64,000 bases of DNA from Planctomycetales bacterium 10988. GTDB taxonomy: Bacteria; Planctomycetota; Planctomycetia; Pirellulales; Pb10988. The number at the start of each line of letters is the position of its first letter. The stretch's first letter is position 1. The stretch spans positions 4,430,709 to 4,494,708 of the forward strand of contig CP043547.1 of the NCBI GenBank assembly GCA_009664345.1, read 5' to 3'. Below, one piece after another: positions 5,753 to 59,918 of the stretch. The notes beneath the pieces were generated by a model. It worked only from the letters and a program-made list of their open reading frames with translations, did no database searches and was not told where the DNA came from. The position numbers and the translations under genes were made by a program.

Positions 5753-6148
5753 CTACTCCGAAGAGGTGGATGGGCGATTGTAATTTCCGGAAAAGCTCCC
5801 CGAGCAACGATAAGAAACCTGCCCGCGAACCGAGGAATCATATTGCATCGATTCGATAAAAAGATTGCCGGCGAAGGTCTTGCCGGTCGCGCCGCAATGA
5901 AGGGCCACCGCGACGAGCTTCCCTTCGACCAACTCCGGGGGAGATGCGTTCGGAAGGGCCTCGTCATCCCACAAGGCATCGAACGTCACCTCCCCCCGTA
6001 GCACACCGGCAATGTATTCGGCGAAGCCCCCGGAGCTGGTATTCGTGACTTCCACTTTGTCGGCACGAAATATTCCCGACCACTGAAGGACCGCCAAATC
6101 TTGTCCCCCGGCGGTAACTTTTCCATGTTTTCCACTATGAAAACTCAT
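5753..6148 (-). CDS. Probable major tail tube protein
   Basis: The 131 residues match the size and texture of siphovirus tube proteins. The opening (HSGKHGKVTAGGQDLAVLQW) resembles the N-terminus of these proteins, where a short hairpin precedes a description of the fold's first strands. Later come a VTFDALWDDEALP loop and a Gly/Ser-rich end. There is no signal peptide. It lies downstream of the tail-terminator-like gene and upstream of two small overlapping genes, the normal place in a siphovirus map. Recognition is by pattern and gene order; a profile search would settle it. Confidence 0.65.
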   Translation of the reverse strand: MSFHSGKHGKVTAGGQDLAVLQWSGIFRADKVEVTNTSSGGFAEYIAGVLRGEVTFDALWDDEALPNASPPELVEGKLVAVALHCGATGKTFAGNLFIESMQYDSSVRGQVSYRCSGSFSGNYNRPSTSSE

Positions 6149-6684: not shown

Positions 6685-7338
6685 TCAAGATTCTTCCTGA
6701 TTCGAATAGGTATCAAACTTCGAAACATAGAGCTTTTGAAGGTGTTCAAGCTCCTCGGTCCATTCCACTTGCCGAATGGAAAATAGCTGGTCTTCGTACA
6801 TGATTCGATGTTGGCTTGTCACCGGCAATGCTCGATGAAGGGTAATTTCGAAAGGCTGCTTCCACATTTCAACATCTTCCAAAAGGTACTTTTCTGATTG
6901 AAGCGGCTGCACTCGAGCAGCGACCTGTGTCCACCGATCTTCCCAAGTCGCCACTCGAACCCCTAAATCATCTTGCTGCCAAGTCGCCTCCTGAATCACG
7001 ATGGACTGCTTCAGGTTCTCGGCAAGGGAAAGATTCCGGCACCAACAGCGATAACGAGTCCCTTGGCTCACTAAATCGACAGCTAAGATAGTCCATTCAG
7101 TCTCCTGCGAATCGATGAGCCGATCGCCTGGGCCAGGCGAAAAATGGGTAGATACTCGGGGCAACTCCCACTGTGTATCCCCTTGACGCACCGCTCCCAT
7201 CGAACGGCTTCCCTCCTTGAGGCGAATCTCCCGACGAAGACAGTCAGGGATATGATCGCGTTGCAACGATCCCGCCTGGGAAAAGACCAGGCATTCTCTG
7301 TTGTCGAAGACTCGGTGATCTTGAGAAATATCCATCAT
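6685..7338 (-). CDS. Probable head-closure/head-tail joining protein
   Basis: This 217-residue protein has a beta-rich C-terminal part. The stretch from PFEITLHRALPVT through HRIMYEDQLFSIRQVEW to LYVSK follows the pattern of phage head-tail joining proteins (PF05521-like: strand, 'RI.Y....Y.I..V', strand). The N-terminal half contains GDRLIDSQETEWTILAVD, another strand pair. It overlaps the small upstream gene by 4 nt (ATGA) and lies between capsid and tail genes. The family call is moderate because it rests on one motif and gene order. Confidence 0.6.
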   Translation of the reverse strand: MMDISQDHRVFDNRECLVFSQAGSLQRDHIPDCLRREIRLKEGSRSMGAVRQGDTQWELPRVSTHFSPGPGDRLIDSQETEWTILAVDLVSQGTRYRCWCRNLSLAENLKQSIVIQEATWQQDDLGVRVATWEDRWTQVAARVQPLQSEKYLLEDVEMWKQPFEITLHRALPVTSQHRIMYEDQLFSIRQVEWTEELEHLQKLYVSKFDTYSNQEES

Positions 7339-7926: not shown

Positions 7927-9087
7927 CTACGAGCCTGGCGTGTTGCGGACAACATACCGTGGATCAAGCACCGCGATCGCTCCCCGTTCACTCGCTTTGA
8001 CCTGCAGAACGATGTCCCGCTCGAAGGCATCATGGTGTTGCGGCGGGGCCTGGGTGATGGTGATCGGCCAATTTTCCATATAAGCAAATGCCCGACGGAA
8101 ATCGCCGTGATACCAGTAACCTTTGGCCAAATCGGCATTGACTCCACTTTCGACTAGCCGATGATAGGCCAACCGGCTGCTAACAATTTGATAGGAAGTC
8201 AGCGGGCTGGTTGCCAAAGTCTGTGTGCTGCCGCTGCTTCCATCGCCCATCCGCACTTCCACCGCATGAACGATATTCCGCGCGACGTTCGATTTGGCGG
8301 GCATCACCAACAAAGTGTTGGGCATCGCTAAGACGGGTTCGCCGCTGGCTGGGTCGATCATTTCGGCAAACAGTTGCTCGCTGGCATCGACATTCGTCCA
8401 ATCGGCCAAGGCATTTTCATCGAGGGTATTCACCCAAGGGGAGGTATCTTGATAGGTATCGTATTGGGTTCCTTTCCAGTTGTAGGGATTCGTCACGCCA
8501 AGCAGACAATCGAGAATCCGCTTCTCTTTATTGAGGCCCAGAACCTCGCCAACTTGAAACGCTTGGCGATAGATCAGCCCTGTGCGATCGAAATAAATCG
8601 CTTCTTGGGTGACGGAGCAGATCAGCCCTCGCTTGTCGGTCTGTGGGGTTTCGACATAATCCTCGCTGAAGCCGACATGGGGAAAGGGCATGCCAGGATC
8701 GACCGTCTCGGCAATATCCGCCAGTGATTCAACGCCGGGGATTTTTTCGCCATCGAGCCGAGTCGGGATCGTTTCTACTAAGCGACTGGCGGCGAAGACC
8801 TCTTGTTGATAGCCTTCCATGATCTTCGAATGCAGTAATTGCCCGGTAATATTACGGAAGGCACTGACATCGACCGCTTCACTCTCCAGCAGAGCAACGC
8901 TCGCTTTCCGACGTGGATCGAGATTCAAGACCCACTCACGACCATCGGGGATAAGGGCTTCCGCCAACGTCCGCACACTAAAATCTTCCGGACGCAAGTG
9001 CCGCTGTTGAAAGCATTCACCTAAACGATTGAGGGTCTGGCTTGGCCCTTCCAGTTCGTACATACGTCGCAGTTCACGGTAATTCAC
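7927..9087 (-). CDS. Probable phage-type major capsid protein
   Basis: The 386 residues have no signal peptide or membrane segment. Features typical of capsid subunits are present: a helical N-terminus, a middle with NKEKRILDCLLGVTNPYNWKG, a late PNTLLVMPAKSNVARNI stretch, and a C-terminal strand region ending SERGAIAVLDPRYVVRNT. The last is the usual end of such subunits, where the P-domain strand closes the fold. It starts at a GTG (9087), a palindrome copy lies 66 nt upstream, and it follows the decoration-like and protease-like genes as in HK97-type maps. The fold class is not certain from sequence alone. Confidence 0.75.
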   Translation of the reverse strand: MNYRELRRMYELEGPSQTLNRLGECFQQRHLRPEDFSVRTLAEALIPDGREWVLNLDPRRKASVALLESEAVDVSAFRNITGQLLHSKIMEGYQQEVFAASRLVETIPTRLDGEKIPGVESLADIAETVDPGMPFPHVGFSEDYVETPQTDKRGLICSVTQEAIYFDRTGLIYRQAFQVGEVLGLNKEKRILDCLLGVTNPYNWKGTQYDTYQDTSPWVNTLDENALADWTNVDASEQLFAEMIDPASGEPVLAMPNTLLVMPAKSNVARNIVHAVEVRMGDGSSGSTQTLATSPLTSYQIVSSRLAYHRLVESGVNADLAKGYWYHGDFRRAFAYMENWPITITQAPPQHHDAFERDIVLQVKASERGAIAVLDPRYVVRNTPGS

Positions 9088-9182: not shown

Positions 9183-9656
9183 TTAAGCAGCGGCTTGCGG
9201 GCCTCCGGTCAATACCGTGCTTTCTATGGCAACCAAGACCTTCGTGCTGGAAGAGCTATGCCGCTGAGCACAACGGCCGATGGCTAGATTCGGATTGGCG
9301 ACCGGAGCAACGGTTTGTGATAGCAGGCCATCCCCGGAGGCGTTTTCATCGATACCGATGAGTTGACCGAGTTCAAAGATGGAGCTAGGACTCGCAAATT
9401 CAAAGATTCCCGAGGTCGCCACGCGAATCTCTTCCGCCCGACCCGAAGGTGAATGCTGCATCGCGACGCCTAAAAAACCATCGTGAAAAGCCTCTTGATT
9501 CGCCGCTTCACTCCCTTGATCGCTGAGCGACGCGGCGGGCTTCGCATCATCGGTGTCCAGATAAAGAAGGTCGCCAATCTCGACCACCGTGGCTTCATCG
9601 ATCGCGGCCATGACAGGGTGCGTTGCTCCGTAACGATAACGAAAGGTATCCGCCAT
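9183..9656 (-). CDS. Probable capsid decoration (cement) protein
   Basis: This 157-residue beta-rich protein begins MADTFRYRYGATHPVMAAID and carries VEIGDLLYLDTDD, HDGFLGVAMQHSPSG and RVATSGIFEF. That order resembles the DUF2190-type small barrel of decoration proteins. The DGFLGVAMQ step and the following IFEFA repeat are the clearest marks. The ATG at 9656 has GAGAGGA upstream with a palindrome copy 17 nt before the start. It lies between the maturation-protease-like gene and the capsid gene, the normal place. Confidence 0.65.
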   Translation of the reverse strand: MADTFRYRYGATHPVMAAIDEATVVEIGDLLYLDTDDAKPAASLSDQGSEAANQEAFHDGFLGVAMQHSPSGRAEEIRVATSGIFEFASPSSIFELGQLIGIDENASGDGLLSQTVAPVANPNLAIGRCAQRHSSSSTKVLVAIESTVLTGGPQAAA

Positions 9657-9737: not shown

Positions 9738-10730
9738 TTAACGCAACCGATCGGCGAATAACTTTGGGTCATGCGGAAAGTCACGTTGTTGAATTTCATC
9801 GAAGGCCCGACTCTGAGGTCGTTCCGCCGCAGCAAGCAATTTTCGACGATCTTCAATCAGTGCCGTGACCTGTCGTTCATCACTGGCATCCAACAGGGCA
9901 TTGAGAAAAACTTCTGTTACTGTGCCGTTCGGCAGTCGGGCTTCGAAGCAACGCTGGGCCAAGGCTTGCCGCTGTTGGCGATGCTTTTCTACCTGCCGAG
10001 CTTCTTGAAGCTGTAACTGAAGCGATTCAATTTGCTGTTGAAGTTGCAATTCTTGCTCCGTCGTGGCGTCGTGCTCGCTCGTAGCATCCACGTCTGCTTG
10101 GATCGCTTGATACAATTCTAAAAAGTAGTTTTTGATTTCAACTCGAACTTTTTCAGCAGGAAACTTCTTGAGTTCCTCAATGAGCGAAATAAGTTCGGCT
10201 GCGGTGGGGTCCTCTTCTTCCTCTGCTTCAAACAAGCCAAGCGTGCTCGCTGGCATTGTCACCAAGTCAACGCTGTGGACGCGAATAATTTCCTCCACGA
10301 CGAAGACACCCTCCTCCATATACCCTCGGCCTTCGGCATGATGGGAAAAGCCGATCGTCTCCGGGGCGTGCTGAGCATCCCATAAAAGCTGCTCTGCCAA
10401 CGGGTGCTTCGGGTTGAAATGCAGATCGCCGTACAGCCCCGTTTGCCCAAAAGTAACTCCACGCAAGGTCCCCAATCGATCGCGATAGTCACGTGGTTGA
10501 AGTTCCTGACCTCGCGGTGGATGATTGATATAGACTTTCGCCCCTTCATAAAGAGGGATCGCCTTCTCAAGAGCCTGGGGAAGATAACGCCGGCCATTGT
10601 GACTTTGCAGGCCGATCAACTTGACCCGCTTGATCACCCCGGCACTGACATCGACCTGGGTCGAAGAGAGCGAAGTCTCCATCTCTTGGAGTGCTTGCGT
10701 GCGGTGAATCTGAAGATGGGAGCCTGGCAT
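9738..10730 (-). CDS. Probable prohead maturation protease/scaffold protein
   Basis: The first gene of the phage-like operon encodes about 330 residues. The N-terminal half has VSAGVIKRVKLIGLQSHNGRRY, YEGAKVYINHPP, a central GFSHHAEG and VEEIIRVHSVDLVTMPAST. This matches the layout of prohead proteases, in which a His and a Ser form part of the active site. The C-terminal half is a long Gln/Glu-rich coiled coil (LQLQQQIESLQLQLQEA), typical of a scaffold domain fused to the protease. A TTG at 10829 opens the longest frame but lies inside the leader terminator. The ATG at 10730 follows GAGGAG and is preferred. A palindrome copy (10120-10133) lies inside the coding sequence. Confidence 0.65.
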   Translation of the reverse strand: MPGSHLQIHRTQALQEMETSLSSTQVDVSAGVIKRVKLIGLQSHNGRRYLPQALEKAIPLYEGAKVYINHPPRGQELQPRDYRDRLGTLRGVTFGQTGLYGDLHFNPKHPLAEQLLWDAQHAPETIGFSHHAEGRGYMEEGVFVVEEIIRVHSVDLVTMPASTLGLFEAEEEEDPTAAELISLIEELKKFPAEKVRVEIKNYFLELYQAIQADVDATSEHDATTEQELQLQQQIESLQLQLQEARQVEKHRQQRQALAQRCFEARLPNGTVTEVFLNALLDASDERQVTALIEDRRKLLAAAERPQSRAFDEIQQRDFPHDPKLFADRLR

Positions 10731-10790
10731 CGGTATCTCCTCTGATGTGTGTTTCGATGGTGGTATTGAGTCATTCGTCCGGCGACAAAA

Positions 10791-10827
10791 AAAGCCCGGC
10801 AGAATCAAATCGCGATTCCGCCGGGCC
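10791..10827 (-). terminator. Intrinsic terminator in the leader of the phage-like operon
   Basis: On the minus strand GCCCGGC...GCCGGGC forms a 7-bp GC stem, extended by GAATC/GATTC inside, followed by seven T. It lies between the promoter at 10955-10982 and the first gene's ATG at 10730, so transcripts must read through it to reach the capsid genes. Confidence 0.8.
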
Positions 10828-10870
10828 AAAGGTCGACTCGCAAGGAGTTTTCTGGTGCCGGTTTAACTGA

Positions 10871-10930
10871 TTGTCGTTCGTATTAACTAAAGGTCTCGTT
10901 AACTAAAGGTCTCGTTGAGGTTGTCGTTCG
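10871..10930. repeat. Ordered direct-repeat block in the operon leader
   Basis: Outer direct repeats TTGTCGTTCG at 10871-10880 and 10921-10930 flank two tandem 16-mers AACTAAAGGTCTCGTT at 10885-10900 and 10901-10916. A 4-nt spacer separates each outer repeat from the tandem pair. All copies are exact. Confidence 0.9.
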
Positions 10931-10954
10931 TTTGCGTCATTCATGACACAATGA

Positions 10955-10982
10955 AGTATACGAATTACTGAACTAATGTCAA
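10955..10982 (-). promoter_or_regulatory. Near-consensus sigma-70 type promoter for the phage-like operon
   Basis: On the minus strand TTGACA (10977-10982) and TATACT (10955-10960) are separated by 16 nt, 11 of 12 consensus positions. It points to the leader with repeats and terminator, then to the protease-like gene. No other minus-strand gene lies between. Confidence 0.7.
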
Positions 10983-11163: not shown

Positions 11164-11367
11164 ATGCCGAAACAAAAAACGCACAAAGGAATCAAGAAGC
11201 GCTTTCGGCTCACCGCGAGTGGCAAAGTGAAGCATAAGGCGGCAGGGAATGGGCACTTAGCCTCCCGCAAAAAGCAAAAGCGTAAACGCCAGCTTCTGGT
11301 AACCCACTATGTTGATGAGTCGCACGCTGTCGCTCTTCGCGACGCCCTCGGAAAGCACAGCTATTAA
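11164..11367 (+). CDS. rpmI: 50S ribosomal protein L35
   Basis: The product begins [14 protein letters not shown] and has the basic [10 protein letters not shown] stretch and closing sequence typical of L35. An in-frame ATG nine bases earlier (11155) would add MDL, but the ATG at 11164 follows AAGGTGG at proper spacing and gives the family's standard start. rplT follows. The usual upstream partner infC is absent here; the divergent phage-like leader occupies that place. Confidence 0.97.
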
Positions 11368-11383
11368 TCGTGCCGACCGAGCT

Positions 11384-11408
11384 TCGAGCGGGACTTCCCG
11401 CTTTTCGA
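11384..11408 (+). terminator. Hairpin between rpmI and rplT, possible attenuator
   Basis: AGCGGG-ACTT-CCCGCT forms a 6-bp GC stem with a 4-nt loop followed by TTTT, extended by TCG/CGA. It might attenuate or regulate rplT, since L20 controls its own operon in several bacteria, but the T run is short. Confidence 0.4.
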
Positions 11409-11478
11409 GGTGGTTCAGGTAGAGAACATCCGGCAGAAGCCGGAGACCTAGGATCACGTGAAATAAGGATCTAGAGCA

Positions 11479-11841
11479 ATGAGAACAACTAATGGTGCCG
11501 CTCGGCATCGTTCCAAAAAGCGCTATTTTAAACGAGCGAAAGGGTATCGCGGTGGACGGAAGAATCTGCTGCGTACCGTTAAGGAAACCCTGCTCCGTAG
11601 TGGAGCCTTCGCCTATCGCGATCGCCGCAAGCGAAAACGCGACTTCCGCCGCCTGTGGATCATTCGTATCAATGCCGCCGCTCGCGAACGTGGCTTACGT
11701 TATAGCGAATTGATCAACGGCCTCAACAAAGCCGGCATCACCTTGAATCGCAAAACCTTGTCCGAAATGGCAATTCACGATCCGACTTCGTTTGACGCGG
11801 TGGTTGAACAAGCCAAATCGGCCTTGGCCCAAGCCGTTTAG
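11479..11841 (+). CDS. rplT: 50S ribosomal protein L20
   Basis: The 120-residue product has the L20 hallmarks: [19 protein letters not shown] at the N-terminus, [15 protein letters not shown] in the middle, and the helical end [13 protein letters not shown]. It binds 23S rRNA early in large-subunit assembly. AAGGAT lies about 10 nt before the ATG. A palindrome copy (AAAAAGCGCTATTT, 11515-11528) is part of the coding sequence for KKRYF, which shows that the motif is tolerated in an essential gene. Confidence 0.97.
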
Positions 11842-12697: not shown

Positions 12698-12991
12698 TTG
12701 TGGAGATCAAGGGTAGGATTCGCCAAGCATTACGAGTAAACAGCGATGATTTGATGAAAAATAAGTGTATTTCCCTTCATCTAGCTGTAATACACACAAA
12801 TTTTACAAAGGAAAAGTTACAATCTCTTCGGTGGATGAAACACCCATCTCCACCAGTTCAGCCTGCCTCGATCGTCCTCTCTTGTTCCTTGTGACTCCTC
12901 GGGAATGAGGCGTTCATACTATCCCCAGCTGACTTTCCAAAAGCGGTTTTTGAATTTCTCGCACATCATTTGTCGCAGGGAGACGCGGCCC

Positions 12992-15900
12992 ATGTTTTCG
13001 TCTTGGTTGAAATCATCCCAACGTGGGAATTCGCAATCGTTGCTTCATTTGGAAACCTTGGAGCCCCGGCTGCTACTCGACGCCCAGCCCTATCAAGTAA
13101 CGAATATCAATGCTCCCGGTCAAAACTTGAGCGACATGATCGAGATTGGCCAAGACTTTTACTTCAAGCGAACTACCGCCGGCGGAGCGGAGTTGTGGAT
13201 CACGGACGGAACCGTCGCAGGCACGGAATTGCTCAAAGCCATCGGTCCCGCCGGGGCCGCGTCCGAGATGCAATCGTTCGTCAACGCCGACGGCATCCTC
13301 TATTTTTTAGCAAATGATGGAACGCACGGAGTCGAACTCTGGAAGAGCGATGGAACCAGCAGCGGCACTCAGCTTGTCATCGACTTAGTGAAAGATGGTG
13401 GCGACGCTGGCATTCAAGAACTCACCGCTGTGGGGAACCTCGTCTTCTTCTCCGCCGACGGCAGCAACGGACGCGAATTGTGGAAGAGCGACGGAACCGC
13501 CGCCGGGACGACGATGGTGAAAAATCTGACCGACGACACCGGCTCTGAAGGGATTCAATCTTCTTCCCCCGAATCCCTGGTGAATGTCGGTGGAATTCTT
13601 TTCTTCACTGCGAATGATGGCACTTCCGGTCGCGAAATTTGGGCCACCGATGGAAGCGATACTAATACGTTTCTCTTAAAAGAGATCGCCCCCAACGAGG
13701 CAGGCTCCGATCCACTCTACCTAACGAATATCAATTCAACCCTCTTCTTTCAAGCGAATGACGGCTCTAGCGGCCAGGAACTTTGGGTCTCCAATGGAGA
13801 GTCGAGCGGCACCTATCTCCTCAAAGACATCAATGCGAACGGGAGTTCCAATCCAAATTTCTTTGTGGAAGCGAACGGAACGATTTTCTTTACGGCGGAA
13901 AACGGGACCAACGGCGTAGAACTATGGTCGACCGATGGAACCTCCACCGGGACACAACTCGTCAAAAACATCAACGCAAGCGGCGATTCCAATCCTTACC
14001 AACTCACCAATGCCGGCGGGAACCTTTATTTTGTTGCGGAAGGATCGGCCAACAATCCGGCCCTTTGGAAAAGCGATGGAACGTCCGATGGCACGGTCTT
14101 AGTAAAAGACATCCATCCCGGTTCGGCACCGCCGCAGATTGAATTTATCGAATTCGTGACGGGAACCGTTTATTTCTCCGCCAACGATGGAGTTCACGGG
14201 CGTGAGCTATGGCGAACCCGAGGAACAAGCGAAACCACCGAACTCGTCAGTGACCTGCTTTCCGGAAGCGGTTCGTCCAACCCTCAGGACCTCATCAGCC
14301 GCAATGGAACTTTATATTTTCTGGCCAATGATGGAGTCGGCGGCGTAGAACTTTGGTCGCTCGATTCCATTCGTCCAGGCTTGCTCATCTCGCCCAACGG
14401 CACCGCAACGGCCAACAGCATGATCACCTTTACCTTCCAATTCTCAGAAGAAGTCACCGGCTTTACTGCTTCAGACATTCAAGTCACCAACGGAACGAAA
14501 GGAACTTTTTCCACAGTTGATGCAACCACCTATACATTAATCGTAAACGCAACGGAAAATGGTTTTGTTACCGTGAATGTTGCGGAAAACATTGCCCAAG
14601 ACATCTCTACCAATGGGAACACCGCTGCATCAGCTTCGGTACTTTATGACAATTCAACTCCGCAGTTATCTATCACTCCTGACGGGATCGAGACTAATAG
14701 CACTTTAATTACCTTTACCTTTCAATTTTCCGAAGGAGTCACCGGCTTTACCGCGGGAGATATCCAAGTGTCCAATGGAACGAAAGGGACCTTTGAAAGT
14801 GTTTCTGCCACGATTTACACATTGGAAGTTACGCCGGGAAATGAAGGGGAAGTTGCTTTGCAAGTTGGTGAAAATGTTGCCTTCGATAGTTTCGGAGTGG
14901 GGAATGCCGCGGCCAATGCAAGCATCGACTTTGACAATACAAACCCTACTTTGAAAATTACAAGTCTTTCCGATTCAACCAACAACAGCCCAATTACCTT
15001 TACCTTTCAATTTAGTGAAGAAGTCGTTGGCTTTTCTCAAAGTGACCTTCAGTTGAGCAATGCGACCGTCAATAACTTTTCCGCCATTGATTCTGACACT
15101 TATACACTTAGTGTGAATCCCATCGCGGATGGAACCGTCACGGTCACCGTCGGGATGAATGTAGCCCAAGACGCGGCAGGAAATGGAAATACGTCTGATT
15201 CAAAAAGTGTCACCTTTGATGGATCGCAACCTCAGCTTAGCATTACTCCGGACGGGATCACGACCAACAATTCTCCCATTCAATTTACGTTTCAATTTTC
15301 CGAAATCGTGACAGGTTTTACGGTTAGTGACATTATCTTTAACAATGCCGCTTTAAATACTTTTTCAGCCGTCGATGGGGATACCTATTTATTAAGTGTC
15401 AATCCGACATCGAATGGAACGATCACAGTCCAAGTGTCAGAAAATGTCGCCCAGGATAGTTTCGGAAATGGAAACACCTCCGCAAGCGCAACGGTGATAT
15501 TTGATACTTCCCTCACTGGGTTAGCAATCACGCCGAATGCCGTTTCCACGGATCGACAGACAGTCCAATTTACCTTTAGTTTCGAAGATGACGTAACAGG
15601 CTTCACCTCGTCCGATATCCAGGTGACCAATGGATCGAAGGGAACATTTTCCGAGCTAGAGCCGAATCTTTATGTCTTGGAAGTCACCGCCAACACGGAA
15701 GGAACTGTTTCACTATCAGTTGCGGAAGCAGCCGCGATGAATGGATTTGGAAATGGAAATTCAGCCGCCACGGCTTCCATTATATTTGATGAAACCGATC
15801 CCGGGTTGACCATCACTCCAAGTGGCGGGCAAACCAATGACGACCCGATACTGTTTACTTTTCAATTTACTGAAGAGGTTACTGGATTTTTAGTTACCGA

Positions 15901-18900
15901 TATCGATCTGACAAACGGCAGTCCTGGAACCTTTACAAAAATTGATGGAGCAAATTATACACTCAGCGTTTTTCCTGACATGGATGGAACCGTCACGGTT
16001 TCCGTCTCCTCTGGAAAGGCAGCGGACTTGGCAACCAATGGAAACACCTCGGCAACCGCGAGTATCACCTTCGATGACAATCAGCCGAACCTGACCATTA
16101 CTCCGTCAGGCACCCAAACAAACAGTTATCCGATTTTATTTACTTTTCAATTTTCTGAAGCAGTGTCAGGATTTGACCTATCCGATATCGAAGTAACCAA
16201 TGGGACCAAAGGGATTTTTACAACCGTCGATACGGACACTTATACCCTTGAAATAAGTCCTTTAGCAGATGGAAACGTCTCCGTCTTCGTGGCGGAAGAG
16301 CAAGCACTCGATGCGTCCAACAATGGAAATACAGAAGATTCCGCCACTGTAGTCTACGACGGCACCGCCCCTCTTTTAACAATCATCCCCAATGAAGACA
16401 CCTTCATTAACACTTCTCCTATTGTCTTCACTTTTCAATTCACCGAAGCAGTCACCGGCTTTTCCACCGATGACATAGTGTTAACAAATGGAATTGCTGG
16501 AGTCTTTACACAGCAGACAAGTCAACTTTATACGTTGGTCGTAACTCCATCTTCACAAGGTCAGGTCACCGTGCAAGTCAATGCAGATGCTGCCGAAGAC
16601 GCCTTCTTCAATGGGAATGAAATGTCTTCCGCTTCAATCTTGTTTGATTCGATCCCTCCTTCGTTGGAAATTACTCCCAATCAATCGACTACCGCTATTG
16701 CTTCAATTCTTTTTACCTTTACGTTTACTGAAGATGTCACCGGCTTTGAATTGTCAGATATTCAATTAACAAATGCCACCGCCGGTCAATTTTCAACACA
16801 AAATGGTAGCGTTTATACTTTAACAGCGACTGCCATTGCCGAAGGGGACGTGCTTGTTTCCGTAAATGCTGAGGTTGCCGAGGACTTCGCAGGCAATTTA
16901 AACACTTCGGCATCCGCCAGTGTAAGTTATGATCCGACGGCCCCCGGGCTGACGATTACTCCGGATACTGAAACTCTCAACAATTCTCCCATTGAATTTA
17001 CTTTTCAATTCACCGAAAGCGTCTTCAACTTCGACGTGGCAGATATTCAAGTAACCAACGGAACCCCCGGAGCTTTTACAGAAGTCGATGCTGACACTTA
17101 TACATTGCTTGTCACCCCGACTGGGCAAGGCACGGTCAAAGTGAATGTATCAGAAAATATTGCGGAGGATGCTACAGGAAATGGAAATCTTGCATCCACC
17201 GCAAGTGTCACATTCGACAGTATTCATCCTCTGCTAACGATCACGCCTGACGACATCATCACGAATCAGCCGACAGTTACTTTTACCTTTTCATTTACAG
17301 AAGAGGTTCTTGGATTTGAGGCTTCTGACATCAATGTTCTCGGCGGGACTGGACAAAATTTTATGATGGTTCAGCCCGACCGTTATACCATTGAGATCAT
17401 TCCCTCCGGAGAAGGGCTTGTTACGGTGGGAGTGTCACAAAATGCCGCGATGGATGCCGCCGAGAATGGAAATAACTCTTCATTTGCGGATGTACAATTC
17501 GACTTTACTTCACCCCTTTTAGCGATCACCCCCCATGAAGAAACACTGACGGATGAACTCGTGACCTTTACTTTTTCTTTTACGGAAGAAGTGTCAGGTT
17601 TTTCCATATCTGACATTTCGGTAATTGGAGGGATTGCAGAAAATTTTGTTCAAATTGAACCTGATTTCTATACGCTAGATGTTGTTGTTGAAAAGGATGG
17701 CCTTCTTCAAATCAGTGTCGCGGACAATGCCGCATATGATGACGTGGGCAACGGAAATCTCAGTGCGAGTGCCACGGTGAATCGCGACCGATTCCGCTCT
17801 CTCATCGTAACCGGAGCGGATGCCGGAGGGGGTCCGCATGTACGCGTCTTTGAACCAAATGGTGCGGAAGTTCTGAGTTTCTTCCCTTATCATCCCAATT
17901 TCACTGGTGGAGTGCGTGTGGCTACTGGCGATATCAATGGCGATGGGCATCTCGACATCGTCACCGCACCCGGCAGCGGCGGAGGCCCCCATATCAAGGT
18001 ATTTGACAGCCGTACCGGGGGACTGCTCTCGGGGGTAACCAACAATTTTTATGCCTTCGAACCAACTTTTACCGGCGGAGTGACCTTGGCGGTCGGCGAT
18101 GTGAATGGGGACGGTTTCGATGACATCATCACCGGGGCAGGTGCCACCGGGGGGCCACGAGTCACCGTCTTTAGTGGAGCCAACGGGTCGATCTTATCCG
18201 ACTTTTTTGCCTACGAGCCGACCTTTTATGGGGGAATTCGTGTCGCTGCCGGCGATCTGACCGGCGATGGGAAAGCGGAAATCATCACCTCTCCCGGACC
18301 GGGCGGTGGCCCTCGCGTGCGGGTTTTCGATGGCAGTTCCGGCGACCCGATGCTCGGCTCCAACGGGGATTTCTTTGCTTATAACCCTGGTTTTCTTGGT
18401 GGTCTGTTCGTCGCCAGCGGGGATATCAATGGCGATGGCTTCGATGACATTATTACTTCTCCCGATGCCACCGGCGGGCCGCATGTGGTGGTTCGCACCG
18501 CGAGCGGTCAGATTTTGCAAAACTTTTTTGCCTATGATCCGAATTTCCTCGGCGGCGTCCGAGTTGCAGTGGCCGATCTCAACGGGGATGGCTTTGATGA
18601 TCTTTTGACTGGCCCAGGTTCTCCCGGCGGGCCGCATGTGCGAGGGTTCAGTGGCAGAGACCTAGCGGACTTGGCCAACTTCTTTGCTTATAATCCCCTT
18701 TTTAACGGAGGAATTTTCCTGGCTGGCGGCGTTTCTCTTCAGCCGGAGGTTTCCTTAATGCCGGCTTCTTCCCCCTTGAAAAGTCTCGCCTTTACAGAGA
18801 CTCCCTCTCTTATTTCCAATGCACCCATTGATCCGTCGAATGCCGATCCGGTCGGCAGTTGGAATGTGCAACTTCAAAAGAAACAGCGGAGTTGGATTGA

Positions 18901-18970
18901 TTCCCTCGACGAATTTTATGCACAATCAGAAGCCATCGACGAACTGTTTAGCGGTCTAGGTATCCGTTGA
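12992..18970 (+). CDS. Giant LEPR-motif surface protein with ELWxSDGT, Ig-like and FG-GAP repeats
   Basis: About 1,992 residues. The N-terminus (residues 1-31) carries LETLEPRLLLDA, the planctomycete LEPR sorting-type motif. Residues ~45-460 hold repeats built on ELWKSDGT-x-x-GT. Residues ~461-1600 hold 12 bacterial Ig-like (Big_12-type) repeats of about 95 residues, each with ITFTFQFSEEVTGF and NGN followed by a VxFDxxxP link. Residues ~1603-1916 hold FG-GAP/VCBS-like repeats with GDINGDGFDDIIT calcium loops (five D-x-N/T-x-D-G). The last ~75 residues lack recognisable repeats. The frame opens at 12905, but the ATG at 12992 follows AGGGAG and gives the standard LEPR start. It is probably exported and adhesive; no catalytic domain was seen. 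Confidence 0.85.
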   Translation: MFSSWLKSSQRGNSQSLLHLETLEPRLLLDAQPYQVTNINAPGQNLSDMIEIGQDFYFKRTTAGGAELWITDGTVAGTELLKAIGPAGAASEMQSFVNADGILYFLANDGTHGVELWKSDGTSSGTQLVIDLVKDGGDAGIQELTAVGNLVFFSADGSNGRELWKSDGTAAGTTMVKNLTDDTGSEGIQSSSPESLVNVGGILFFTANDGTSGREIWATDGSDTNTFLLKEIAPNEAGSDPLYLTNINSTLFFQANDGSSGQELWVSNGESSGTYLLKDINANGSSNPNFFVEANGTIFFTAENGTNGVELWSTDGTSTGTQLVKNINASGDSNPYQLTNAGGNLYFVAEGSANNPALWKSDGTSDGTVLVKDIHPGSAPPQIEFIEFVTGTVYFSANDGVHGRELWRTRGTSETTELVSDLLSGSGSSNPQDLISRNGTLYFLANDGVGGVELWSLDSIRPGLLISPNGTATANSMITFTFQFSEEVTGFTASDIQVTNGTKGTFSTVDATTYTLIVNATENGFVTVNVAENIAQDISTNGNTAASASVLYDNSTPQLSITPDGIETNSTLITFTFQFSEGVTGFTAGDIQVSNGTKGTFESVSATIYTLEVTPGNEGEVALQVGENVAFDSFGVGNAAANASIDFDNTNPTLKITSLSDSTNNSPITFTFQFSEEVVGFSQSDLQLSNATVNNFSAIDSDTYTLSVNPIADGTVTVTVGMNVAQDAAGNGNTSDSKSVTFDGSQPQLSITPDGITTNNSPIQFTFQFSEIVTGFTVSDIIFNNAALNTFSAVDGDTYLLSVNPTSNGTITVQVSENVAQDSFGNGNTSASATVIFDTSLTGLAITPNAVSTDRQTVQFTFSFEDDVTGFTSSDIQVTNGSKGTFSELEPNLYVLEVTANTEGTVSLSVAEAAAMNGFGNGNSAATASIIFDETDPGLTITPSGGQTNDDPILFTFQFTEEVTGFLVTDIDLTNGSPGTFTKIDGANYTLSVFPDMDGTVTVSVSSGKAADLATNGNTSATASITFDDNQPNLTITPSGTQTNSYPILFTFQFSEAVSGFDLSDIEVTNGTKGIFTTVDTDTYTLEISPLADGNVSVFVAEEQALDASNNGNTEDSATVVYDGTAPLLTIIPNEDTFINTSPIVFTFQFTEAVTGFSTDDIVLTNGIAGVFTQQTSQLYTLVVTPSSQGQVTVQVNADAAEDAFFNGNEMSSASILFDSIPPSLEITPNQSTTAIASILFTFTFTEDVTGFELSDIQLTNATAGQFSTQNGSVYTLTATAIAEGDVLVSVNAEVAEDFAGNLNTSASASVSYDPTAPGLTITPDTETLNNSPIEFTFQFTESVFNFDVADIQVTNGTPGAFTEVDADTYTLLVTPTGQGTVKVNVSENIAEDATGNGNLASTASVTFDSIHPLLTITPDDIITNQPTVTFTFSFTEEVLGFEASDINVLGGTGQNFMMVQPDRYTIEIIPSGEGLVTVGVSQNAAMDAAENGNNSSFADVQFDFTSPLLAITPHEETLTDELVTFTFSFTEEVSGFSISDISVIGGIAENFVQIEPDFYTLDVVVEKDGLLQISVADNAAYDDVGNGNLSASATVNRDRFRSLIVTGADAGGGPHVRVFEPNGAEVLSFFPYHPNFTGGVRVATGDINGDGHLDIVTAPGSGGGPHIKVFDSRTGGLLSGVTNNFYAFEPTFTGGVTLAVGDVNGDGFDDIITGAGATGGPRVTVFSGANGSILSDFFAYEPTFYGGIRVAAGDLTGDGKAEIITSPGPGGGPRVRVFDGSSGDPMLGSNGDFFAYNPGFLGGLFVASGDINGDGFDDIITSPDATGGPHVVVRTASGQILQNFFAYDPNFLGGVRVAVADLNGDGFDDLLTGPGSPGGPHVRGFSGRDLADLANFFAYNPLFNGGIFLAGGVSLQPEVSLMPASSPLKSLAFTETPSLISNAPIDPSNADPVGSWNVQLQKKQRSWIDSLDEFYAQSEAIDELFSGLGIR
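14376..17790 (+). repeat. Twelve tandem ~285-nt repeats encoding Ig-like domains
   Basis: Each unit carries a strongly conserved DNA core close to TTTACCTTTCAATTTTC. Protein repeats are diverged outside FTFQF, VTGF and NGN. Copy number may vary between strains by recombination. Confidence 0.8.
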
Positions 18971-58340: not shown

Positions 58341-58984
58341 TAAGTAAAGTTAATACTTTAATAAGATTGACATAAACAGTTCGAATTTAAATAAAATTTT
58401 ACCGTAGTGGATGGAGTTAATGGACTTCATTCACTACGGTTTTTTTAATGGGCAATCTAGGAAAATTTCCTTGAATCTTTTTCATAAAATCACCTGAATT
58501 CCCTTAAAATCAAGAGGTTTTGCGCGATTGTTTGCTGATCGCTGAATCCGCAAGGCGAAAGGGAAACGGCCAATTGGTGATTGTTTCCCCAACGCGCATT
58601 CATCAACCCATTTTGATACCCTGATCTAAAACTCTTTCTACTAAAAAAATTTTCTTTTTTTCTAAAGAGTTTGCGTGATTCATCTACCTTATATCTATCA
58701 CGCGCGACAAGTTCCCTGATTGCACGATCCAACCCCGAATCCCTTCCATATTGGCATTCCATTCGCTCTTCCTATTCATCGAGTCTTGCAGATGATTGCG
58801 GTTGAACCGCTTCATCAACTTAGCAAGAGAGAATGAGAGTAATGGACTCTCAACTAGCGAATGGCTTGCATTCGCGAATGCATAAAGAAAGGGAATACAC
58901 GCTTTTGCAAGTATTTGCTGAAGTCGTCCCTTTCTTACAGCATTTCATAATCGAAACTTTAATCGAATAGTTAGGGAACGTATC
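58341..58984. other. 644-nt gap between the IS and the PRC-barrel gene
   Basis: It holds the terminator at 58399-58446. A TTGACA (58367-58372) precedes it with TAAAAT at 58392-58397, but their 19-nt spacing is poor. No gene was supported in the rest. Confidence 0.5.
58399..58446 (+). terminator. Strong intrinsic terminator just right of the IS
   Basis: ACCGTAGTG (58401-58409) pairs with CACTACGGT (58432-58440), extended by ATG/CAT and AG/CT inside, followed by seven T. No plus-strand gene lies just before it except the gsp operon beyond the IS. Confidence 0.85.
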
Positions 58985-59866: not shown

Positions 59867-59918
59867 ACTTGTTGAATTGGTTAAGTAATGGTCTTTTAGA
59901 CTAATACTTCAAGATGAA

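Follow-up and report, generated by a model that had tools for sequence, protein, structure and literature searches.

The stretch analysed here, called the window, comprises 64,000 nucleotides (nt) of Planctomycetales bacterium 10988 (contig CP043547.1, positions 4,430,709 to 4,494,708) and belongs to a 6.65 Mb single-contig genome. On its minus strand, a sigma-70-type promoter and an intrinsic terminator hairpin stand ahead of a capsid operon whose first gene encodes a prohead protease. This promoter-hairpin pair probably serves as an attenuating leader for the particle operon of a domesticated phage resembling a gene transfer agent, and would represent a distinct RNA element of the order. An earlier note, made from the sequence alone, had described a near-consensus promoter, TTGACA-16-TATACT. 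Its two hexamers (10982-10977 and 10960-10955), separated by a 16-nt spacer, indeed match 11 of the 12 consensus positions. The strong hairpin with seven T, placed by the same note about 130 nt further on, was found 128 nt after the -10 box. It forms 15 pairs (10827-10793, approximately -27 kcal/mol) and runs into seven T (10793-10787). Behind it, the GAGGAG Shine-Dalgarno site (10742-10737) and the ATG at 10730 introduce the gene that had been called protease-like.

When both strands of the window were searched with spacers of 15-19 nt, only two promoters matched 11 of 12 positions, against a mean of 0.45 in shuffled sequences; the second lies at 58367 and has a 19-nt spacer. Among 19 terminator-like sites between 5000 and 16000, the hairpin ranks strongest. 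Judging from the promoter position, transcription would start at about 10948. Two head-to-tail adjacent copies of a 16-nt repeat (CGAGACCTTTAGTTAA; 10883-10914, minus strand) are found between promoter and terminator. The hairpin cannot be attributed to a preceding gene, because no minus-strand gene ending ahead of it was seen in the window and the rpmI-rplT genes (11164-11841, plus strand, named by reading their sequences) lie upstream of the leader and are divergent from it. Leader-peptide attenuation was also set aside for the window: its leader holds just one open reading frame (ORF), of 13 codons, which by eye shows neither a ribosome site nor a codon bias.

The position of the terminator was compared in relatives from the same order, probably the Pirellulales, for which the wider searches covered 147 genomes. 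A hairpin followed by a T-run precedes the orthologous protease gene in most relatives, including more than 30 divergent ones. Usually 18-68 nt, which include a ribosome site, separate the end of the T-run from the protease start codon; some computed protease starts fall within the T-run and are thus mis-called. With the protease match itself as reference, the T-run of the leader was located 18-157 nt upstream in at least 45 genomes. In most of them this distance is too short to hold a promoter, and the capsid messages must therefore read through the terminator. Many capsid leaders of relatives are, furthermore, located behind the portal gene.

Side-by-side reading of these leaders revealed a repeated motif, which could be parsed in 39 loci as GGTATC-n5-GAGCC-stem-GGTATC-n5-GAGCCC-stem-GGGCTTTTTT. 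In the RNA it reads GGUAUC-n5-GAGCC-stem-GGUAUC-n5-GAGCCC-stem-GGGCUUUUUU, and its segments are designated m1 (GGUAUC), m2 (GAGCC), m3 (the second GGUAUC) and m4 (GAGCCC, the 5' arm of the terminator). No family of the Rfam covariance models reached its gathering score, and a permissive scan of one leader gave sub-threshold matches only. A covariance model search with the leader itself found matches in 66 of the 147 genomes. The protease is present in 60 of these 66 genomes and in 31 of the 81 others (Fisher p 2e-11). About 30 relatives showed no clear match to the motif, and most of these had no terminator at the protease position either, so that the two features tend to be present or absent jointly; two of these relatives, L090 and L095, do show weak motif matches. 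Outside the order, the leader model gave marginal matches only. A pattern search of viral contigs returned 80 loci, three of which hold the leader. Among the IMG/VR contigs that encode the major capsid protein, the leader occurs mostly where the protein identity exceeds about 50 per cent; contigs with both capsid gene and leader may be pieces of planctomycete chromosomes labelled viral.

The folding of the leader family was examined by covariation. In the terminator fold, which combines the m2:m3 hairpin with the terminator, 17 of 22 pairs vary on both sides among 34 sequences. Double changes were observed in 122 cells against 47 after shuffling, and sliding of the partners abolished the signal. 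With 73 distinct model matches the corresponding values were 340 and 101, although this larger alignment was fitted to the model and is hence biased toward its fold. The m1 segment is near-invariant, yet it is unpaired in the terminator fold. A candidate partner is m4: m1:m4 pairs can form in 362 of 365 cells, and all five of them in 70 of the 73 sequences, compared with 49 of 73 for m3:m4. In an RNA ending before the 3' arm of the terminator, the mean predicted probability of m1:m4 is 0.52, whereas that of the alternatives is 0.01-0.02. The outer stem thus predicted encloses the covarying small hairpin; the internal loop between the two mostly measures 5 by 5 nt. We infer that m1:m4 is the antiterminator pairing. 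An early proposal in which m1:m2 and m3:m4 together formed the antiterminator was dropped, as the folding predictions do not return m3:m4 and many sequences have mismatches in it. The mean energies are -29 kcal/mol for the terminator and -16 kcal/mol for the antiterminator. As the terminator fold is the more stable, the operon should be off by default, and the antiterminator would have to be favoured by some further influence.

These properties suggest the following scheme. Transcription would begin upstream of the leader element or at it. In the OFF state, the small hairpin (GAGCC...GGUAUC) and the strong terminator (GAGCCC...GGGCUUUUUU) would form and a short aborted RNA would be released. 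In the ON state, the first GGUAUC would pair with GAGCC in the 5' arm of the terminator and enclose the small hairpin; formation of the terminator would thereby be blocked and the operon read. The ON state probably depends on a factor, either a protein or a ligand, that stabilises the antiterminator. In the window, promoter and leader plausibly govern a transcription unit of about 17 kb, from the protease gene to the terminase gene.

Attenuation of the phage-particle operon is our best reading; the comparison of relatives argues strongly for it in the leader family and moderately in the window. Several observations weigh against it, both for the family and for the copy in the window. The GGUAUC:GAGCC pairing shows no covariation because its sequence hardly varies, and the pairing is therefore deduced from complementarity and predicted folding. 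In addition, the first sequence set was picked by a pattern containing GGTATC, so that the near-invariance of this segment is partly selected, although the later model search was unforced. In the window, the GGUAUC/GAGCC motif is absent from the leader. The match of the window leader to leader model R1 (10779-10863, minus strand) scores 23 bits (E 0.018 in 638 kb), which is not separable from a generic terminator, the unrelated one at 59886 reaching 20.9; a search of the whole window genome with R1 gave no match. An alternative fold of the same design can be drawn in the window as a candidate antiterminator (10821-10861, minus strand), overlapping the 5' arm of the terminator. In this fold, CCGG-ca-CCAGA pairs with UUUGG-c-CCGG around the small hairpin ACUC-CUUGC-GAGU (10848-10836), with a predicted probability of about 0.96 when the 3' arm of the terminator is left out. 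However, leaders shuffled upstream of the arm equalled it in 46 of 1000 cases by probability and in 259 of 1000 by energy, so that the candidate is weakly or not better than shuffled leaders and is suggestive only.

Thus, the terminator of the window (10787-10827, minus strand) and its place, which has a positional counterpart in relatives, are firm, and a switch at this site is plausible. The layout of an attenuator or antitermination control that the earlier note had recognised is supported in the relatives, where a conserved and covarying leader, an unavoidable terminator and a formable alternative pairing come together; it would carry over only in part to the window, where GGUAUC is missing and the antiterminator is at best weakly above shuffled leaders. 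As a consequence, attenuation in the window rests mainly on the relatives. The window, with its terminator but no motif, is an exception, perhaps because this copy has diverged or is decaying.

The leader is not restricted to capsid operons. In 18 genomes, a second copy on the same strand lies 7.8-11.6 kb upstream of the capsid copy and heads the packaging operon, an arrangement also found in Bythopirellula; the first gene of this operon is often YiiX-like. Further copies head polymorphic-toxin or immunity loci, of which nine were noted. Among their genes are those for a DddA-like deaminase toxin accompanied by Imm1 and for an HNH toxin (Tox-SHH); one locus has a SUKH immunity gene, and Tox-REase-2 was matched weakly. 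Several of the toxin proteins behind the leader share a common part and differ in their C-terminus. Some copies precede genes that could not be clearly assigned, and others have no sense gene behind them. As side observations, Rhs-like and additional SUKH-like genes were recognised by eye at the toxin loci, and the gene at the head of the operon behind the leader is often peptidase-like: subtilisin-like at four loci, and YiiX-like, trypsin-like or papain-like elsewhere. In one genome (G090), the model matched 27 times, apparently within a repeated element.

Many of the 58 non-capsid copies share a promoter of the form TTGAAAT-nn-G-n-CCA-...-TAnnnT, also written TTGAAATnnGGCCA...TAnnnT, in which GGCCA is conserved between the -35 and -10 boxes. 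Its -35 box is placed about 40 nt ahead of the leader, and about 78 nt ahead in the toxin copies. The exact pattern was found in 21 of the 147 genomes, and the reversed control pattern in none. The promoter of the window is without GGCCA and shows a loose resemblance, its spacer being at the 1 per cent level against the motif; the pattern searched for in the window genome had been loosened until it fitted the window, so this search adds no independent evidence. It was also noticed that a promoter class, TTGAAATnnGnCCA-n5-T-n4-TAnnnT, stands at a fixed distance from leaders, with matches in G012, G034, G079 and other genomes. The same class occurs at leader-less sites (up to 19 in G012), some of them paired a few hundred nt apart.

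With this element ahead of the packaging operon as well, and in some genomes ahead of toxin loci, one signal could switch capsid, packaging and toxin loci together. Extended in this way, the leader would be an undescribed two-state attenuator RNA with a pseudo-symmetric core (GGUAUC-n5-GAGCC / GGUAUC-n5-GAGCC), read by a ligand or a protein and uniting packaging, capsid and polymorphic toxins of the order in one regulon. We regard this broader proposal as tentative, and rather less likely to hold than to fail. Perhaps the toxins are deployed together with the particle, which would give a reason for a common regulon.

The genes behind the window leader are all on the minus strand. The AlphaFold model of the prohead protease (9738-10730; 22-sequence alignment, mean pLDDT 83) was matched by Foldseek to T4 gp21 (5jbl, E 4e-6) and to viral prohead proteases. 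It is followed by a capsid cement/decoration protein (9183-9656; Phage_cement_2, 25.5 bits for a cut-off of 24), the major capsid protein (7927-9087; Phage_capsid_4, 7e-12), a head completion protein (6685-7338; Phage_HCP, 7.5e-10) and a tail tube protein (5753-6148; phrog_1407, 2.8e-8, with Phage_tail_2 under its cut-off). The gene at 1373-2008, without a Pfam match, resembles by eye the YiiX-like head of the packaging operon of relatives. Beyond the left edge of the window (genome positions 4424203-4431972), packaging genes adjoin the structural genes on the minus strand; gene 1373-2008 is directly succeeded, in the same orientation, by a trypsin-like gene and then, past several others, by genes for a ParB-like protein and an ATPase, with the terminase gene at 4424 kb. 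The portal gene is separate from the rest, at 4375 kb (about 4375200-4376650), and the terminator upstream of it was judged ordinary, since a small ORF ends ahead of it. Relatives have the packaging genes first, the portal gene next, and protease and capsid genes last. The particle gene set of the window genome is therefore permuted, with protease and capsid first, and partly dispersed. No family-mates of this genome were present among the relatives searched.

The protease is present in 91 of the 147 genomes, mostly as a single copy. For the major capsid protein, 104 relatives were confirmed in genome contigs and 80 were kept, all titled planctomycetes; it had no match in the phage database, and four operon proteins had none in PADLOC. 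As for a gene-transfer-agent nature, structural and packaging genes are present and no integrase was noticed when the ORFs were read. A 2021-residue repetitive ORF (12905-18970) was also observed beside the ribosomal protein genes.

Other explanations of the leader were weighed against attenuation. Antitermination could be loaded at the promoter, as with lambda Q, AlpA or GafZ: a protein bound to the DNA between -35 and -10 would ride with the polymerase past the terminator, and the RNA repeats would be just the terminator plus an accessory pause or loading signal. The succession of promoter, terminator and phage-type genes is that of the lambda Q and AlpA systems (PMC6606751, PMC9371919), and the Caulobacter gene transfer agent (GTA) is switched by GafZ via a terminator, from an element between -10 and -35 (PMC11150451). 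The GGCCA sequence conserved in many non-capsid copies has the same location, which is a lead and not a proof, and the pattern also occurs leader-less in some genomes. However, protein binding to DNA at the promoter does not account for the conservation of the RNA pairings or for a GGUAUC that hardly varies, in-operon capsid leaders are rare among the best promoter-like sites, and the window promoter lacks GGCCA. For these leaders, we consider promoter loading unlikely.

Taken alone, the window presents the anatomy of a gene for a small RNA, running for about 160 nt from its promoter to a strong terminator, in which case the capsid genes would be fed by modest leakage or by another promoter. 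The short distance from T-run to start codon in relatives, occupied by a ribosome site and leaving no promoter room, and the many capsid leaders behind the portal gene make a stand-alone RNA very improbable. It is also conceivable, with perhaps one chance in a few, that the window leader is a decayed relic, in which the terminator was kept and the switch lost and which would act as a constant damper. The absence of GGUAUC, the weak model score, the near-chance antiterminator and the dispersal of the gene set are in keeping with decay, as is the exceptional occurrence of a terminator without the motif, most motif-less relatives having neither. Such a relic would nevertheless have preserved well both its promoter and its 15-pair terminator, and an alternative fold of the family design, with an outer stem around a small hairpin, is still predicted in it. 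Attenuation by the leader RNA remains the reading we prefer.

Candidates for the factor in trans were also considered. An antiterminator gene near the operon in relatives, which the earlier note had proposed to search for, was not found among the two families covered, as neither NusG paralogues nor ANTAR proteins track the leader. Leader genomes often gave a single NusG-family match, examples being G001, G011, G012, G029, G055 and G058, so that a NusG paralogue is not required and was rejected as the general factor. The ANTAR protein was rejected likewise, being present in 28 of the 147 genomes and missing from many leader genomes.

A leader shared by packaging, capsid and toxin loci offers a handle on the timing of particle production and ties inherited phage particles to antibacterial toxins. 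One type of RNA brake appears to restrain many phage-derived and weapon genes of the order, and the ligand or protein that reads this RNA class can be looked for. Attenuation, like antitermination of phage late operons, is already known; the planctomycete leader RNA and its set of targets are absent from Rfam, and the literature collection searched contained no paper on the regulation of planctomycete GTAs or phage particles.

In ANTAR-type attenuators, an RNA unit occurs twice, and its second copy overlaps the terminator. The planctomycete leader resembles them in its repeated units, the second also at the terminator, but its best-fitting fold is nested and not a tandem of hairpins, and its loops vary. 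LoaP antitermination is linked with a leader RNA element. It shares with the present system the long operons (PMC12691694), whereas several leader genomes contain a single NusG-family match. The likeness to T4 gp21 lies in the fold of the first gene product and does not concern regulation. No repeated leader RNA is known from the lambda Q or AlpA systems. In the lambda Q late promoter and in Pseudomonas AlpA control, an intrinsic terminator after the promoter must likewise be read through, but the mechanism is a DNA-loaded protein (PMC6606751, PMC9371919). The GTA cluster of Caulobacter crescentus is controlled by GafY/GafZ, GafZ binding DNA between -10 and -35, and its terminator, which lies within 150 bp repeats, comes behind the first gene (PMC11150451). 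Both systems involve a domesticated phage cluster with a terminator near its front; in Caulobacter, expression needs antitermination and other loci are co-regulated, and the same would apply to the planctomycetes. In the planctomycetes, the terminator lies instead in the 5' leader and is accompanied by a predicted, conserved alternative RNA fold. This sets the planctomycete leader apart, in a way that can be tested, from the Caulobacter GTA with its protein-based antitermination switch.
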